In this document: positions 8,325-24,193 of the stretch, in pieces
Position numbering within the stretch: position 1 is the first letter of the stretch
How the letters are laid out: each line of letters starts with the position of its first letter
NCBI RefSeq assembly: GCF_023276355.1
Contig: NZ_JALLPL010000001.1
Coordinates: forward strand, 2,418,001-2,482,000
Reading direction: 5' to 3'
DNA: 64,000 nt
Source: Haloplanus sp. XH21
GTDB lineage: Archaea > Halobacteriota > Halobacteria > Halobacteriales > Haloferacaceae
Program-made: the position numbers and the translations under genes
Notes under the pieces: model-generated
Told to the model about the DNA's origin: nothing
Databases searched by the model: none
The model's input: the letters and a program-made list of their open reading frames with translations, nothing else

Positions 8325-9088
8325 GTCGGAGCACCGTCCAGTTGAAGACGCTGGTCCGCCGGGAGATTCTGCGGTTCGTCAGGCGGCCGTACAACACGTT
8401 CCTACCGCCGATCATCACGAACACGCTCTACTTCGCCGTGTTCGGCGTGATCCTCGGAAGCCGGATCGGGTCGATCGCGGGCGTGAGTTACATCCAGTTC
8501 GTTCTCCCCGGACTGGTCGTCCTCGGGGCCATCTCCGACGCCTTCGAGAACGCCTCCTTCTCCATCTTCCACGGTCGCTGGAACAACTACATCGACGCCG
8601 TCATCGTCACGCCAATGTCGAATTTCAACATGGTCGCGTCCTACGTCATCGCGAGTGCGACGAGAGGCATCGTCACGGCGTCGCTCATCGTCGGTGTGGG
8701 TCTCATCTTCACCTCGGTGCCGCTCTCACACCCCCTGTATCTCGTCGCGTTCCTCCTCGTCATCACGACGCTATTCGGCGGTCTCGGCATCATCGGCGGC
8801 CTCTGGGCCGACGACTTCGACTACCTCACCGTGCTGAACCAGTTCATCCTCCGCCCGCTGGTCTTCTTCGGTGCGGTGTTCTACTCGCTCGAAATCCTGC
8901 CCCCGACGTGGCGAACCGTCTCGCTGTTGAACCCGATGGTCTACATGGTCAACGGCGTCCGATACGGGATGATCGGCGTGACCGAAATCGACCCGAACCG
9001 ATCGCTGGTCGTGCTGTCCGCCGCCGCCGCGGTCGTCCTGCTGGTCGACTTTCTGCTGTTCAAGCGGGGGTACGGCCTGACGGAGTAA
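8321..9088 (+). CDS. ABC-2 type transporter permease
   Basis: A 255-residue membrane protein with about six transmembrane segments (FLPPIITNTLYFAVFGVILG, FVLPGLVVLGAIS, LILVGVGLIF-like and others). It carries the ABC-2 domain, and the C-terminal LLNPMVYMVNGVRYGMIG is a family hallmark. ATGA overlap with the ATPase gene shows it is the channel half of the same transporter. A palindromic repeat region begins 20 nt after its stop. Confidence 0.9.
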   Translation: MSRSTVQLKTLVRREILRFVRRPYNTFLPPIITNTLYFAVFGVILGSRIGSIAGVSYIQFVLPGLVVLGAISDAFENASFSIFHGRWNNYIDAVIVTPMSNFNMVASYVIASATRGIVTASLIVGVGLIFTSVPLSHPLYLVAFLLVITTLFGGLGIIGGLWADDFDYLTVLNQFILRPLVFFGAVFYSLEILPPTWRTVSLLNPMVYMVNGVRYGMIGVTEIDPNRSLVVLSAAAAVVLLVDFLLFKRGYGLTE

Positions 9089-9107
9089 AAGGCCCAAGAC
9101 GGAGACC

Positions 9108-9137
9108 GTCTCATACGGACTATTGTCCCTGTTTACC
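9108..9137 (+). repeat. Isolated left half of the 86-bp palindromic element
   Basis: These 30 bases are identical to 9172-9201, the left end of the full element that follows 64 nt later. The sequence after it (9138-9171) has its own short inverted pair TTCGTC/GACGAA, so this may be a decayed element with a different hairpin. Confidence 0.75.
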
Positions 9138-9174
9138 TATTCGTCCCGTCGTACGCCCGACGAACCGTCGTGTC

Positions 9175-9260
9175 TCATACGGACTATTGTCCCTGTTTAC
9201 CGGTGGTTCGCCGGACTGTTTCGGCGAACCACCGGTACTGACTTACGATAAACCGTATCA
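9175..9260 (+). repeat. 86-bp palindromic element, copy A
   Basis: A near-perfect palindrome over 86 bp. Ends are TCATACGG and CCGTATCA, outer arms contain TATTGT/ACGATA, and the core hairpin is CCGGTGGTTCGCC, a 10-nt loop, then GGCGAACCACCGG. It lies between the ABC permease and trmY, ending 8 nt before the trmY ATG. The central ~50 bases are identical to copy C at 11052. Confidence 0.88.
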
Positions 9261-9268
9261 CACCACCT

Positions 9269-9865
9269 ATGCGCCAGTTCGTCGTCATCGGTCATGACGT
9301 GCCCACGACTCCCGAGTTCGCGCTCGACGACCTCGCCAGCGGCGCCGGCCGCCTCGACGTCCTCTGTCGGTGTGTCACGTCGGCCTTCTTCCTCTCGCAC
9401 GACATCCGGAAGGACGCGCGCGTCCATCTCGTCCTCGACGACGCGTTCACTGTAACCTTCGACGGGAGCGACCTGCGACGACTCAATCCCGACGAGCGAA
9501 GCACGGCCGCGCTGGTTCGGGGCGCGCTGGAGCGCCGCGACGACGCCATCGGCCACCAGCCCGTCGAATCCAGCCCCGGGGTGTCGATCCGCCGCCGGGG
9601 CTTCGAGGCCACGCTGGACGCTCTCGGCGACGAGACGACGCTCGTTCACCTCCACGAGGCAGGGGCGCCTGTGGTCGACCGCGAGCCACCCAGTGATCCC
9701 GTGTTCGTCCTCTCCGATCACCACGACTTCACAGCGCAGGAAGCCGACCTGCTGACCGAGCGATCGGACCTCCGCGTGCGCCTCGGTCCGCGGGCGCTCC
9801 ACGCCGACCACGCCATCACCGTCGCGCACAACTACCTCGACACCGAGGGGTTCCAGACGTACTGA
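9269..9865 (+). CDS. trmY: tRNA (pseudouridine-54 N1)-methyltransferase TrmY
   Basis: A 198-residue SPOUT-class methyltransferase. It uses SAM to convert pseudouridine 54 of tRNA to N1-methylpseudouridine, the archaeal counterpart of the T-loop ribothymidine. N-terminal MRQFVVIGHDVPTTPEFAL, middle SAFFLSHDIRKDARVHLVL, GVSIRRRGFEA and the knot region DPVFVLSDHHDFTAQEADLL match TrmY. Its substrate base is made by Pus10, encoded at 24194-25474. The TGA stop is the first three bases of a palindromic element. Confidence 0.93.
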   Translation: MRQFVVIGHDVPTTPEFALDDLASGAGRLDVLCRCVTSAFFLSHDIRKDARVHLVLDDAFTVTFDGSDLRRLNPDERSTAALVRGALERRDDAIGHQPVESSPGVSIRRRGFEATLDALGDETTLVHLHEAGAPVVDREPPSDPVFVLSDHHDFTAQEADLLTERSDLRVRLGPRALHADHAITVAHNYLDTEGFQTY

Positions 9866-9947
9866 TAGGGATTCTCGTAACTGTCCAGAGATTCTCGCGG
9901 ATACGGTCCCCGCGAAAATCTCTGACGGCTTCGAATAAACCCTATGA
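9863..9947 (+). repeat. 85-bp palindromic element, copy B, starting at the trmY stop
   Basis: The element begins TGATAGGG, whose TGA is the trmY stop codon, and ends CCCTATGA. The outer right arm AATAAACC matches other copies, but the core hairpin is unrelated in sequence: AGAGATTCTCGCGG (9887-9900), a 9-nt loop, then CCGCGAAAATCTCT (9910-9923), 14-bp arms with one mismatch. Confidence 0.75.
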
Positions 9948-10008
9948 GACGGATCGGTTACTGTGTCCCCGCGGTCTCCGACCGCCGAAACTGACGTGCG
10001 ACAGGCCG
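9945..10008 (+). repeat. Truncated palindromic element in tandem with copy B
   Basis: It shares TGA with the end of copy B and begins TGAGACGG, followed by GTTACTGTGTCC, a short hairpin GCGGTC-TCC-GACCGC (9971-9985) and CTGACGTGCGA as in copy C. The right outer arm is degenerate. Confidence 0.6.
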
Positions 10009-10064
10009 GCCGATTCTCGGTGAATCACAACTGTTAAACTCGGCGCTGGCGTTCATTCAGACGC

Positions 10065-10137
10065 GGGCCGGTGGGGTAGCTTGGTATCCTTCGGCCTTCG
10101 GGTGGCCGTAACCACGATTCAAATTCGTGCCGGCCCA
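10065..10137 (+). tRNA. tRNA-Pro (anticodon CGG)
   Basis: A complete cloverleaf: acceptor GGGCCGG pairs with CCGGCCC, the anticodon stem CGGCC/GGCCG encloses TTCGGGT giving anticodon CGG, and the T arm CACGA-TTCAAAT-TCGTG precedes discriminator A. No intron. CCA is not encoded. A TATA-like GTTAAACT lies about 32 nt upstream. Confidence 0.93.
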
Positions 10138-10166
10138 CTTTTCCCGCATTCTTACACCGTGAGCAA

Positions 10167-10343
10167 CGGCCTTCGGGTGGCCGTAACCGCGTCCCCGCGA
10201 GCAGTGCGGGACCGAAGGTCCCGCTGGAAGCCGGCCGCAGGCCGGCGACGAAGCGAGCGGGGGATGACAGTCGCACGCCTGGGAAGCGATCGAAGGGAGC
10301 GACCCGGAACGTCTCGTCCGGGTTCAAATTCGTGCCGGCCCAC
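10167..10343 (+). pseudogene. Broken second copy of tRNA-Pro, 3' half interrupted by ~130 bp
   Basis: The anticodon arm of tRNA-Pro recurs exactly at 10167-10188 (CGGCCTTCGGGTGGCCGTAA then CC). The T arm plus 3' acceptor strand recurs at about 10321-10343 (TTCAAATTCGTGCCGGCCCA). Between them are ~130 bases of unrelated GC-rich sequence, and the 5' half of the tRNA is missing. Sequence after both copies is also similar (TTTCCCGCA, TTAC, TGAGC), so a segment larger than the tRNA end was duplicated. It cannot fold into a tRNA. Confidence 0.7.
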
Positions 10344-10415
10344 GTTTCCCGCACGTTACCGCCTGAGCCACACCCCCGGAAGAGAATTTAACCGTCTCAC
10401 CCCCTACCATCCGGT

Positions 10416-11054
10416 GTGGACGCTCCGTTCGAAGTTCTCGGAATCGATCCCGACGCGGACGACGCAGCGGTCGACAAGGCCTACCGCCGTCGAGTGATGG
10501 AGACGCATCCGGACCAGGGTGGGTCGGTCCGCGAGTTCCAACTGGTCAAGCAGGCCTACGAAGCAATCGAGGCGGGACGGAGCGACGGCGACGCCGAACG
10601 CGGACGCGAACGGGAGCGAAGTCGCCCGGTCGGCACCCGCGTCACCTACCTCAACTACGCCGTCCTCGACGATTACGGCTGGACGCTCGACGACGCGGAC
10701 CTGTTCGAGAACGCCGCCAGCGCGGATCTCGATCCCACAGACTACGGCGAGTTCCGGGTCGAGCCCGGCGAGACGCTGCTCGAAGCGGCCGAGAACAGGG
10801 GGTTCGCGTGGCCCTTCGCCTGCCGAGGCGGAGCGTGTGCGAACTGCGCCGTCGCCGTCGTCGAAGGCGAGATGACGATGCCCGCGGACCACATTCTGTC
10901 GACGGAGATGTACGACCGCGGCATCCGTCTCTCCTGTCTCGGCGGGCCGACGACGGAGGAGATGAACGTGGTCTACAACGTCAAGGAGATGCCGGGACTG
11001 GACGAACTCCGGCTGCCGCCCTACCGCTTCGAGCGGGCGCGGTCGGACGACTGA
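10416..11054 (+). CDS. J-domain / 2Fe-2S ferredoxin fusion protein
   Basis: A 212-residue protein with two parts. Residues ~4-55 form a DnaJ-like J domain (FEVLGIDPDADDAAVDKAYR, then HPDQGG with the HPD motif). Residues ~70-205 form a halobacterial plant-type ferredoxin: VTYLNYAVLDDYGW, cluster motif CRGGACANC and a later Cys in RLSCLGG, ending NVVYNVKEMPG. The ferredoxin part carries electrons for 2-oxoacid oxidoreductases and similar enzymes. The start is GTG, with AATTTAACC about 28 nt upstream. The TGA stop is the first codon of repeat copy C. The J domain suggests contact with a DnaK chaperone or Fe-S assembly. Confidence 0.88.
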   Translation: MDAPFEVLGIDPDADDAAVDKAYRRRVMETHPDQGGSVREFQLVKQAYEAIEAGRSDGDAERGRERERSRPVGTRVTYLNYAVLDDYGWTLDDADLFENAASADLDPTDYGEFRVEPGETLLEAAENRGFAWPFACRGGACANCAVAVVEGEMTMPADHILSTEMYDRGIRLSCLGGPTTEEMNVVYNVKEMPGLDELRLPPYRFERARSDD

Positions 11055-11137
11055 TACGGATTACTGTCCCTGTTTACCGGTGGTTCGCCGGACTGTTTCG
11101 GCGAACCACCGGTACTGACGTGCGATAAACCGTCTGA
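11052..11137 (+). repeat. 86-bp palindromic element, copy C, starting at the ferredoxin stop
   Basis: It begins TGATACGG, the TGA being the stop of the J-domain ferredoxin, and ends CCGTCTGA. The core hairpin CCGGTGGTTCGCC/GGCGAACCACCGG with loop GGACTGTTTC-like sequence equals copy A. Length is 86 bp, the same as copies A and E. Confidence 0.88.
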
Positions 11138-11266
11138 CCCTTAGCGGCGGCGGGCGACCAGTGCAGTCACGAGGACGGCGAGCAGCGTCGCGCTGACGCC
11201 GGCGAGGACCCCACGAAGCCGAACGACGGGGGGAAGGCTAAATAGATGGGGCAGAAACCCGGGGGT

Positions 11267-11731
11267 ATGGACTGTCCGCAGTGTGGTGGCACGCTCACCA
11301 CGTACGCCCTGGACGGCCAGGAAGCGTCCGTCTGTGAGGACTGCGGCTACGTCGGCATCCCGGCCGAACACCGGGGCGATTCCCGTCACGTCGAATCCTG
11401 GGACGACGCCCTCCGTCGATTTTATCGGGCACACGGCACCGACGAGGATCCACGCGTCGAACTGCAACCGCCGCTCTCACGGCCGGGCGACGCCGCGGCA
11501 GAGGAGACGTGGGACGACGCCCTCCGACGGTTTCGGGAGCGACAGGTGGGAACGACGGACGAGGCGTCGGCGGGAGACGAAACGAGCGATGAGAAAGAGG
11601 AAACGAGCGACGAAGACGAGACGGCAGAAGCGGCCGACGGCGAATCGACAGCGGGGACCGAACCGGAGGCCGCCGAGCAGTCGGCGTCACGCCCGCAGTC
11701 GCAGTCTCAGTCCTCGGCGGGCGATTCCTGA
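11267..11731 (+). CDS. Zinc-ribbon protein with duplicated WDDALRRF motif
   Basis: A 154-residue protein. MDCPQCGG and CEDCGYVG form an N-terminal TFIIB-like zinc ribbon (residues 3-26). [15 protein letters not shown] and [14 protein letters not shown] repeat at ~42-56 and ~83-96. The last ~55 residues are acidic, Glu/Ser/Thr-rich and disordered. I prefer ATG 11267 because CTAAATAG lies ~26 nt upstream, fitting a leaderless transcript; an in-frame ATG exists at 11246. The gene's tail overlaps the convergent salactin gene by 25 bp. It may bind nucleic acid or basal transcription partners, but no function is proven. Confidence 0.75.
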
Positions 11732-23560: not shown

Positions 23561-24073
23561 GTGACCCGCCCGCCGACCGCTCGTGCACCGGACGCCGATG
23601 GAGGGATCGCGCTCGACGCCACCACGGCGGCCGACCTCCAGCGACTCCGGGACGTGAGCCACCTGCTCGACGACTCGATTCGGGTCCCGGGGACCACGTA
23701 CCGCATCGGCGTCGAACCGGTCGTCGGTCTCCTCCCCGTCGTCGGCGACGCGCTCGGTGCCGCCGTCGCGGTCTACGTCCTCGCCATCGCCGCCCGAACG
23801 GGCGTCCCGCGGGCGACGCTGGCGCGCATCGCGGTCGTCTTCTGGATCGACGCCGCCGTGGGTGCCGTCCCCGTCGCGGGCGACGTGTTCGACGCCTACT
23901 GGAAGGCGAACTTGCGGGCAGTGCGTCTTCTCGATACACGACTCGCGGATCCCGCGTCGGCGGCGGCCGACCGTCGATATCTGTGGCGGCTCGGGGTCGC
24001 CGCCGGCTTCCTCGGACTGATCGCCGCGGCCGCCGTCGGCAGCCTCGCGTGGTGGCTTCTGGGTCGGGTCTGA
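23561..24073 (+). CDS. DUF4112 membrane protein
   Basis: A 170-residue protein of the DUF4112 family. LDDSIRVPGTTYRIGVEPVVGLLPVVGDALGA is the family core, followed by LARIAVVFWIDAAVGAVPVAGDVFDAYWKAN with its Asp-containing loops, and a C-terminal membrane segment. It is a membrane protein of unknown function. The start is GTG 23561, the first codon before the conserved part that does not overlap the divergent purC. The TGA stop is the first codon of repeat copy E. Confidence 0.78.
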   Translation: MTRPPTARAPDADGGIALDATTAADLQRLRDVSHLLDDSIRVPGTTYRIGVEPVVGLLPVVGDALGAAVAVYVLAIAARTGVPRATLARIAVVFWIDAAVGAVPVAGDVFDAYWKANLRAVRLLDTRLADPASAAADRRYLWRLGVAAGFLGLIAAAAVGSLAWWLLGRV

Positions 24074-24156
24074 GACGGAGTATTGTAACCGTCTCCCGGT
24101 GGGTCGCCAAGACGGATCGGCGACCCACCGGTACTGACTTACAATAAACCGGATGA
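24071..24156 (+). repeat. 86-bp palindromic element, copy E, starting at the DUF4112 stop
   Basis: It begins TGAGACGG with the TGA being the DUF4112 stop, and ends CCGGATGA. The core hairpin is CCGGTGGGTCGCC, loop AAGACGGATC, GGCGACCCACCGG. Compared with copies A and C one stem base changed T to G and its partner A to C, keeping the pair. The right arm ACTGACTTACAATAAACC is near-identical to copy A. Confidence 0.88.
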
Positions 24157-24193
24157 TAGTAAGGCAGTTACGCGAGCGCCCCCGTCTGGCAGT

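Follow-up and report, generated by a model that had tools for sequence, protein, structure and literature searches.

The 85-bp imperfect palindrome directly 3' of a trmY-like gene, at 9863-9947 of the window, belongs to class B of a family of imperfect palindromes, 78-86 bp long, that are dispersed through a Haloplanus genome, and its insertion duplicated the TGA stop codon of trmY. The window is the whole 64-kb stretch of DNA analysed; it lies on a chromosome-sized contig of a 2.94-Mb genome. For the family, we found a TNA duplication on insertion, species-specific occupancy, a bias toward stop codons, avoidance of operons and a class structure. We think it likely that the family is a non-autonomous, MITE-like transposon that uses TNA as its target and persists where its insertion is silent.

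The copy after trmY and its target duplication

The element after trmY begins with TGA, an outer arm, TAACTGTCC, AGAGATTCTCGCGG (9887-9900) and a 9-nt loop. It continues with CCGCGAAAATCTCT (9910-9923) and closes with AATAAACC (9934-9941), CTA and TGA. AATAAACC is the usual class A spelling of the 3' outer arm and is also present in the class B copy L004. The features in and around the element are as follows.

9175-9260, + strand: class A element with TCA/TCA ends, outside any stop codon
9269-9865, + strand: trmY-like gene, Pfam Methyltrn_RNA_2 (ORF list, Pfam search)
9863-9865: trmY stop (TGA), serving as left copy of the target duplication (TGA conserved in 11/11 congeners)
9863-9947, + strand: class B element including both TGA copies of the target duplication
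9866-9877, + strand: 5' outer arm TAGGGATTCTCG (sequence; class B consensus)
9878-9886, + strand: 5' inner box, common to the classes (comparison of class consensus sequences)
9887-9900, + strand: core stem, 5' side (pairing, fold)
9910-9923, + strand: core stem, 3' side (pairing, fold)
9934-9944, + strand: 3' outer arm AATAAACCCTA
9945-9947, + strand: right TGA copy of the target duplication
9945-10008, + strand: degenerate class A copy that starts at the duplicated TGA
11052-11137, + strand: class A element occupying the stop (TGA) of the DnaJ-ferredoxin gene at 10416-11054
24071-24156, + strand: class A element occupying the stop of the + strand gene upstream of it

The first-pass annotation had described the copy after trmY as having a different 14-bp core hairpin. 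This was confirmed, with the correction that the core is not unique to this copy. The stem pairs at 13/14 positions, and the RNA fold (-36 kcal/mol, compared to -19.3 in shuffles; z -5.3) beats the shuffles. The copies with which it had been compared do have a different core, ACCGGTGGKTCGC. The adjoining "partial copy" at 9945-10008 is also real: its local score as a class A element, 41.5, was reached by 0/2000 shuffles. The fold of 24072-24157 had a z of -6.1. Rfam covariance models gave no match at E<=1 in 9000-11400.

We found that the terminal TGA...TGA is a direct repeat that lies outside the inverted repeat and represents a 3-bp TNA target duplication. The annotation had correctly seen TGA at both ends but had not recognised it as a target duplication in stop codons. 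In a first set of 83 copies (of 94 first pairings; 80-90 bp only), 67 had T.A at both ends. The middle base was the same in 63 of these 67 and complementary in none, with a maximum of 41 in 20,000 permutations. Similarly, among 100 elements in 17 other genomes (from 26 + 80 loci in relatives), the middle base was the same in 73/76 and complementary in 1.

The trmY site is empty in relatives. All 11 congeners (11/11) have the TGA and no element, with the same downstream sequence, GAATCACAACTGTTAAA, within ~20 bases. For trmY, this excludes a stop codon supplied by the element through truncation of the gene, since the TGA predates the insertion. There was no arm near the stop in 10/11 orthologues at a second site or in 10/10 at a third, and the relatives' stops at both sites are often TAG.

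Three observations concern the surrounding sequence. A stretch of class A arm, TCTCATACGGACTATTGTCCCTGTTTACC, recurs 64 bp upstream of the complete class A copy at 9175-9260 (window 9109-9190), which suggests a partial tandem duplication or a nested remnant. A tRNA-Pro(CGG) gene is at 10065-10138, and a second fragment (~10168-10345) resembles the tRNA-Pro(CGG) 3' half, broken up by other sequence, as a decayed element that had integrated at a tRNA site would leave it. The product of the gene at 10416-11054 is a fusion of a DnaJ domain and a 2Fe-2S ferredoxin domain.

The family is abundant in its own genome. A degenerate arm pattern had 118 forward and 105 reverse matches there (reversed control, 1 + 3), and the focal DNA used as a query had 38. 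Pairing of opposed arms in fetched loci gave 91 elements: 66 of class A, 23 of class B and 2 matching both. Unpaired or badly degenerate copies are left out of all counts unless named. The class A and B arms listed, forward matches only, were all on contig C1; one paired class D copy was on C2 (L401). A strict arm pattern was present in 11/12 Haloplanus genomes and 20/170 genomes of the family Haloferacaceae, and in 6/17 genomes of one other genus, one of which had 77 matches. With a slightly wider pattern and a wider sample of the order, 39/392 genomes had matches, mostly single outside the family. With a class A copy as the query, plasmid records gave one weak match (Haloplanus sp. GDY1) and phage records gave none; with the focal copy there was no plasmid match.

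Insertion into stop codons

We found that the duplicated triplet coincided exactly with a called gene's stop codon in 67/91 class A and B copies (all elements of the improved pairing; genes called by a home-made codon score, not annotation). Among the relatives' elements, the same was true of 69/100. The available TNA sites numbered 250 at stops and 1735 between genes, a stop share of 12.6%. On the intergenic side, stop-codon insertions have a G at +1 and a C at +3 more often than control stops do. Weighting sites by this flank preference raised the expected stop share to 24% (control-stop baseline) or 47% (intergenic baseline), and the observed 74% exceeded both (p 2e-7 compared to 47%), although the weighting is partly circular because the preference was estimated from stop-codon insertions. 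Insertions were rare where another gene follows closely: a same-strand gap of less than 30 bp followed the stop in 5/88 insertions, compared to 73/191 control stops (p 1.5e-9).

The bias differs among the four classes described below. Classes A-C were in stop codons in 76/111 copies, compared to 2/22 for class D (p 2e-7). By class, the fractions were 54/66 for A, with weaker bias in B (11/23) and C (9/20). Classes A-C are flanked by a 3-bp TNA duplication, kept exactly in only 8/20 class C copies, and class D is mostly flanked by TA (both sides, 12/22 copies). A 3-bp TNA duplication rebuilds TGA or TAA, and a 2-bp TA duplication does not. We therefore read the stop bias as the result of target choice and selection. 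Because TGA and TAA are themselves TNA triplets, an insertion in such a stop codon would rebuild an intact stop. Insertions there would be neutral and survive, and those in genes, promoters and operons would be lost.

One stop codon was used twice. The stop of an FAA-hydrolase gene holds a class A copy in G000 and a D-like copy in G071 (L351, reverse strand, ~2223-2302). The two classes inserted there independently. The D-like copy apparently sits, with a TA duplication, in what was probably a TAG stop codon, and the G071 gene now reads four codons into the element.

Some of these results might also indicate active targeting: termination complexes or a 3'-end protein, for example, could direct the transposase, or a partner of it, to the ends of genes, and insertion there would be more than tolerated. 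Within 1-60 bp downstream of stops, TNA sites are no scarcer than at stops (332 compared to 250), yet the distance list placed only ~10/91 copies there, compared to 67 at stops. The excess of the observed share over the weighted 24-47%, and the G071 stop that holds a different class from that in G000, point the same way. However, the flank preference, which extends to the intergenic side, already lifts the expected share, the avoidance of operon-like gaps shows strong purifying selection, and class D, with the same architecture, has no preference for stops. We consider active targeting unlikely, and favor target choice combined with selection. Among the papers listed by literature searches on haloarchaeal or prokaryotic repeats, stop codons, MITEs and Haloplanus, none describes such stop-codon insertions in its title or in the abstract opening shown.

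Classes, arms and cores

Classes C and D were revealed by a class-blind search that required TA ends, inverted arms, an AACTG...GACTT pair and a core stem, and ignored the sequence of arms and core. This search found 80 elements in 1.26 Mb and none in the same sequence reversed. Targeted searches of the own genome then gave 20 class C and 22 class D copies, for a total of 133 copies taken, in at least four classes (A, B, C and D). Consensus C was built on 10/20 copies and consensus D on 16/22, and the later class calls were alignment-based.

All four classes have the same layout: a 12-bp outer arm, an inner box, a core stem, a loop and then the mirror image, 78-80 bp in all without the target duplication. 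The palindromic identity of the class consensus sequences (terminal inverted repeats) is 0.78-0.85. The classes have in common their length, a TA end and the inner box (TAACTGTTT ... TGACTTAC), and differ in both outer arms and core. Conservation between class consensus sequences is highest in the 5' inner box (67-100% identity). The 5' outer arms are 33-83% identical (A/C 50%, B/C 33%) and the cores 14-50%.

We found that each class keeps its own pairing of arms and core. The G diagnostic of TAGGG arms was absent from 131/132 arms around A cores and present in 42/46 around B cores, where copies without a class label (53/91) were read as class A. This rules out free swapping of cores as a general rule. 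The first-pass annotation had proposed a family defined by its ends and architecture, with a core that can be exchanged. Length and architecture are indeed kept, and the cores do fall into discrete classes: A-D here, and in other genera a further core, GGTCATCGCC, inside class A-like arms (L168, L170, L172, L338). The outer arms are not the constant part, however; they change with the core, and the inner box stays constant.

Exchange of cores does occur, in a few mosaics (L145, L030:1501, L020, L134 and L019). The best is L145, with class A-like arms (5' 13/16, 3' 9/16) and a core that matches class D (2/2000 shuffles matched equally well). In L030:1501, a left arm resembling class B flanks a class A element, and L020 and L134 combine A and B pieces. 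Outside the genus, in G070 (L342), TAGTG arms surround a class A core. Mosaics could plausibly arise by nested insertion. A TGA target lies within the inner box, and the class B copies L013, L017 and L029 are inserted at the inner-box TGA of class A copies. By reading, the class C copy in L299 is in a similar place.

Several variants stand apart from these mosaics. In G075 (L164, L183, L306-L325), most class A copies taken end in CAGTA, not CCGTA, on one side only. This one-sided change is genome-wide, as expected from a burst of one master copy. L329 and L330 (~1501-1601), from another family of the order, have class B-like arms, TAGGGATTATCGTAAC, around longer centres that look non-palindromic, ~100 bp in all. 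Ends like those of insertion sequences, GGCTTTGTTGAAATC / GGCTCTGTTGAAATC, lie next to or within class A elements (L060, ~1585; L147, ~1513).

The two sides of the core tend to change together. Among 116 distinct 86-bp class A copies, there were 69 two-sided changes at 15 core pairs, compared to 19.5 by shuffling, and 19 at 15 arm pairs, compared to 5.2; 28 distinct 84-bp class B copies had 17 two-sided core changes, compared to 6.5, all with shuffles that ignore the relatedness of copies. Pairs 32/55, 33/54 and 38/49 account for most of the class A core excess. The class A core state was weakly linked to the arm columns (5/19 tested below 0.05, uncorrected). As far as sequence comparison can tell, the core data fit maintenance of pairing, by selection or by template-switch correction, rather than recognition of a core sequence. 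The suggestion in the annotation of core-specific recognition was not borne out: variable class A stem positions change in compensating pairs that are weakly linked to the arms.

Compensation in the core could also mean selection on RNA, if the hairpin after the stop codon were a bidirectional transcription terminator or a stabiliser of 3' ends. This would fit the strong fold, the excess of two-sided core changes in both classes and the avoidance of operon-like gaps. In a Haloferax volcanii reporter, a hairpin ended 59% of transcripts, according to the reported result (PMC7237163), which also favors such a function. However, the frequency of convergent placement was no different from that at control stops (47/135 compared to 127/318, p 0.34), and copies lie almost freely in either direction relative to the gene (A 34:19, B 5:6). 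All 11 congeners lack an element after trmY. Besides the blindness of the shuffles to relatedness, template-switch correction of imperfect palindromes would give the same paired changes. We regard a terminator or stabiliser role as improbable, and prefer a transposon whose hairpin is kept paired.

Mobility, known systems and significance

Transposition would depend on a putative DDE transposase acting in trans, since a staggered duplication is a DDE signature. The enzyme would recognise the ends, probably outer arm plus inner box, and may cut with a 3-bp stagger at a short palindrome resembling GNC-TNA-GNC. The core would be a hairpin spacer with no role in recognition, its pairing kept and its sequence drifting or replaced. 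The classes would be subfamilies, in which rare new arm and core combinations probably arise by nested insertion or by recombination at the shared box and loop.

We looked for such a transposase at PF01609 loci in 12 Haloplanus genomes (30 loci of 131 matches), and none had matching ends or a TNA duplication. The ends at these loci belong to other insertion sequences, several with 8-10-bp duplications. Arms found singly in distant genomes (L326, L327, L335, L336, L345) are probably chance matches or lone arms rather than transposon ends. The frames beside them, read by eye, are what we take to be oxidoreductase-, ABC- or dehydrogenase-like proteins, or nothing recognisable.

A more far-reaching model, which we find doubtful, is a modular superfamily of haloarchaeal transposons. 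In that model, one common factor would read the inner box, outer arms and cores would be exchangeable cassettes, and the arm class would set the cut (TNA for A-C, TA for D). Stop codons would be a safe haven for the 3-bp classes, whose duplication of TGA or TAA preserves the end of the gene, and nested insertion at the inner-box TGA would generate new pairings of arm and core.

Short, imperfect, extragenic hairpins in high copy number also recall REP/BIME-like repeats moved by a Y1 (HUH) transposase that recognises the hairpin. HUH transposition is not known to leave a target duplication. The TNA duplication is clear in two independent sets, which counts strongly against such an origin, and we consider it very improbable. 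REP/BIME elements with RAYT are mobilised without target duplication, which is present here.

There is next to no chance that the copy after trmY is merely a decayed element whose core was altered by a chance insertion: it is unlike the class A copies first set beside it, but many copies have the same core, including 23/91 class A and B copies in its own genome, 18 elements in relatives were assigned to class B (one of which, L299, proved to be a class C copy inserted within another element), and its global score is 118.5 against consensus B and 71 against consensus A.

The nearest described kinds of element, in the accounts cited here, are prokaryotic MITEs (PMC10969869) and the SMRs of Haloquadratum walsbyi (PMC3119063). 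MITEs are described as short, non-coding, intergenic and high in copy number, with terminal inverted repeats and target duplications (PMC10969869). The elements here likewise have inverted repeats and a target duplication, are multicopy and, at 78-86 bp, are too short to encode a transposase. No parent transposon turned up among the 30 PF01609 loci examined. Unlike the MITEs of that account, the elements here have outer arms, and not only centres, that differ between classes sharing an internal box, and their duplicated triplet is mostly a stop codon. A term search of the main text of that review found no "stop codon".

SMRs resemble our elements in being haloarchaeal repeats of 80-110 bp with terminal inverted repeats, nesting and no known transposase. 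However, SMRs are defined in that source as causing no target duplication (PMC3119063), and our elements have TNA or TA. PATEs, like IS605-type transposons, are haloarchaeal palindromes, and PATEs are also transposase-free. In the same source, PATEs have neither terminal inverted repeats nor target duplications (PMC3119063); the elements here have both. The IS1031 group (IS5 family) is described as using a TNA target with a 3-bp direct repeat (PMC12016507). Classes A and B have both features, and class C has them exactly in the 8/20 copies noted above. In contrast to the elements here, the IS1031 group encodes a transposase (857 bp in the example given in PMC12016507), and we found no such copy with these ends among the PF01609 loci examined.

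In compact genomes, mobile elements need harmless landing places. The target triplet of this family coincides with stop codons, so that an insertion is silent to the codon. Class D is a built-in contrast, with a 2-bp duplication that fails to restore the stop codon. The many species-specific insertions are material for testing selection against targeting. The family also suits the study of how a hairpin after a stop codon affects archaeal 3' ends, and of how subfamilies gain new arms and cores.
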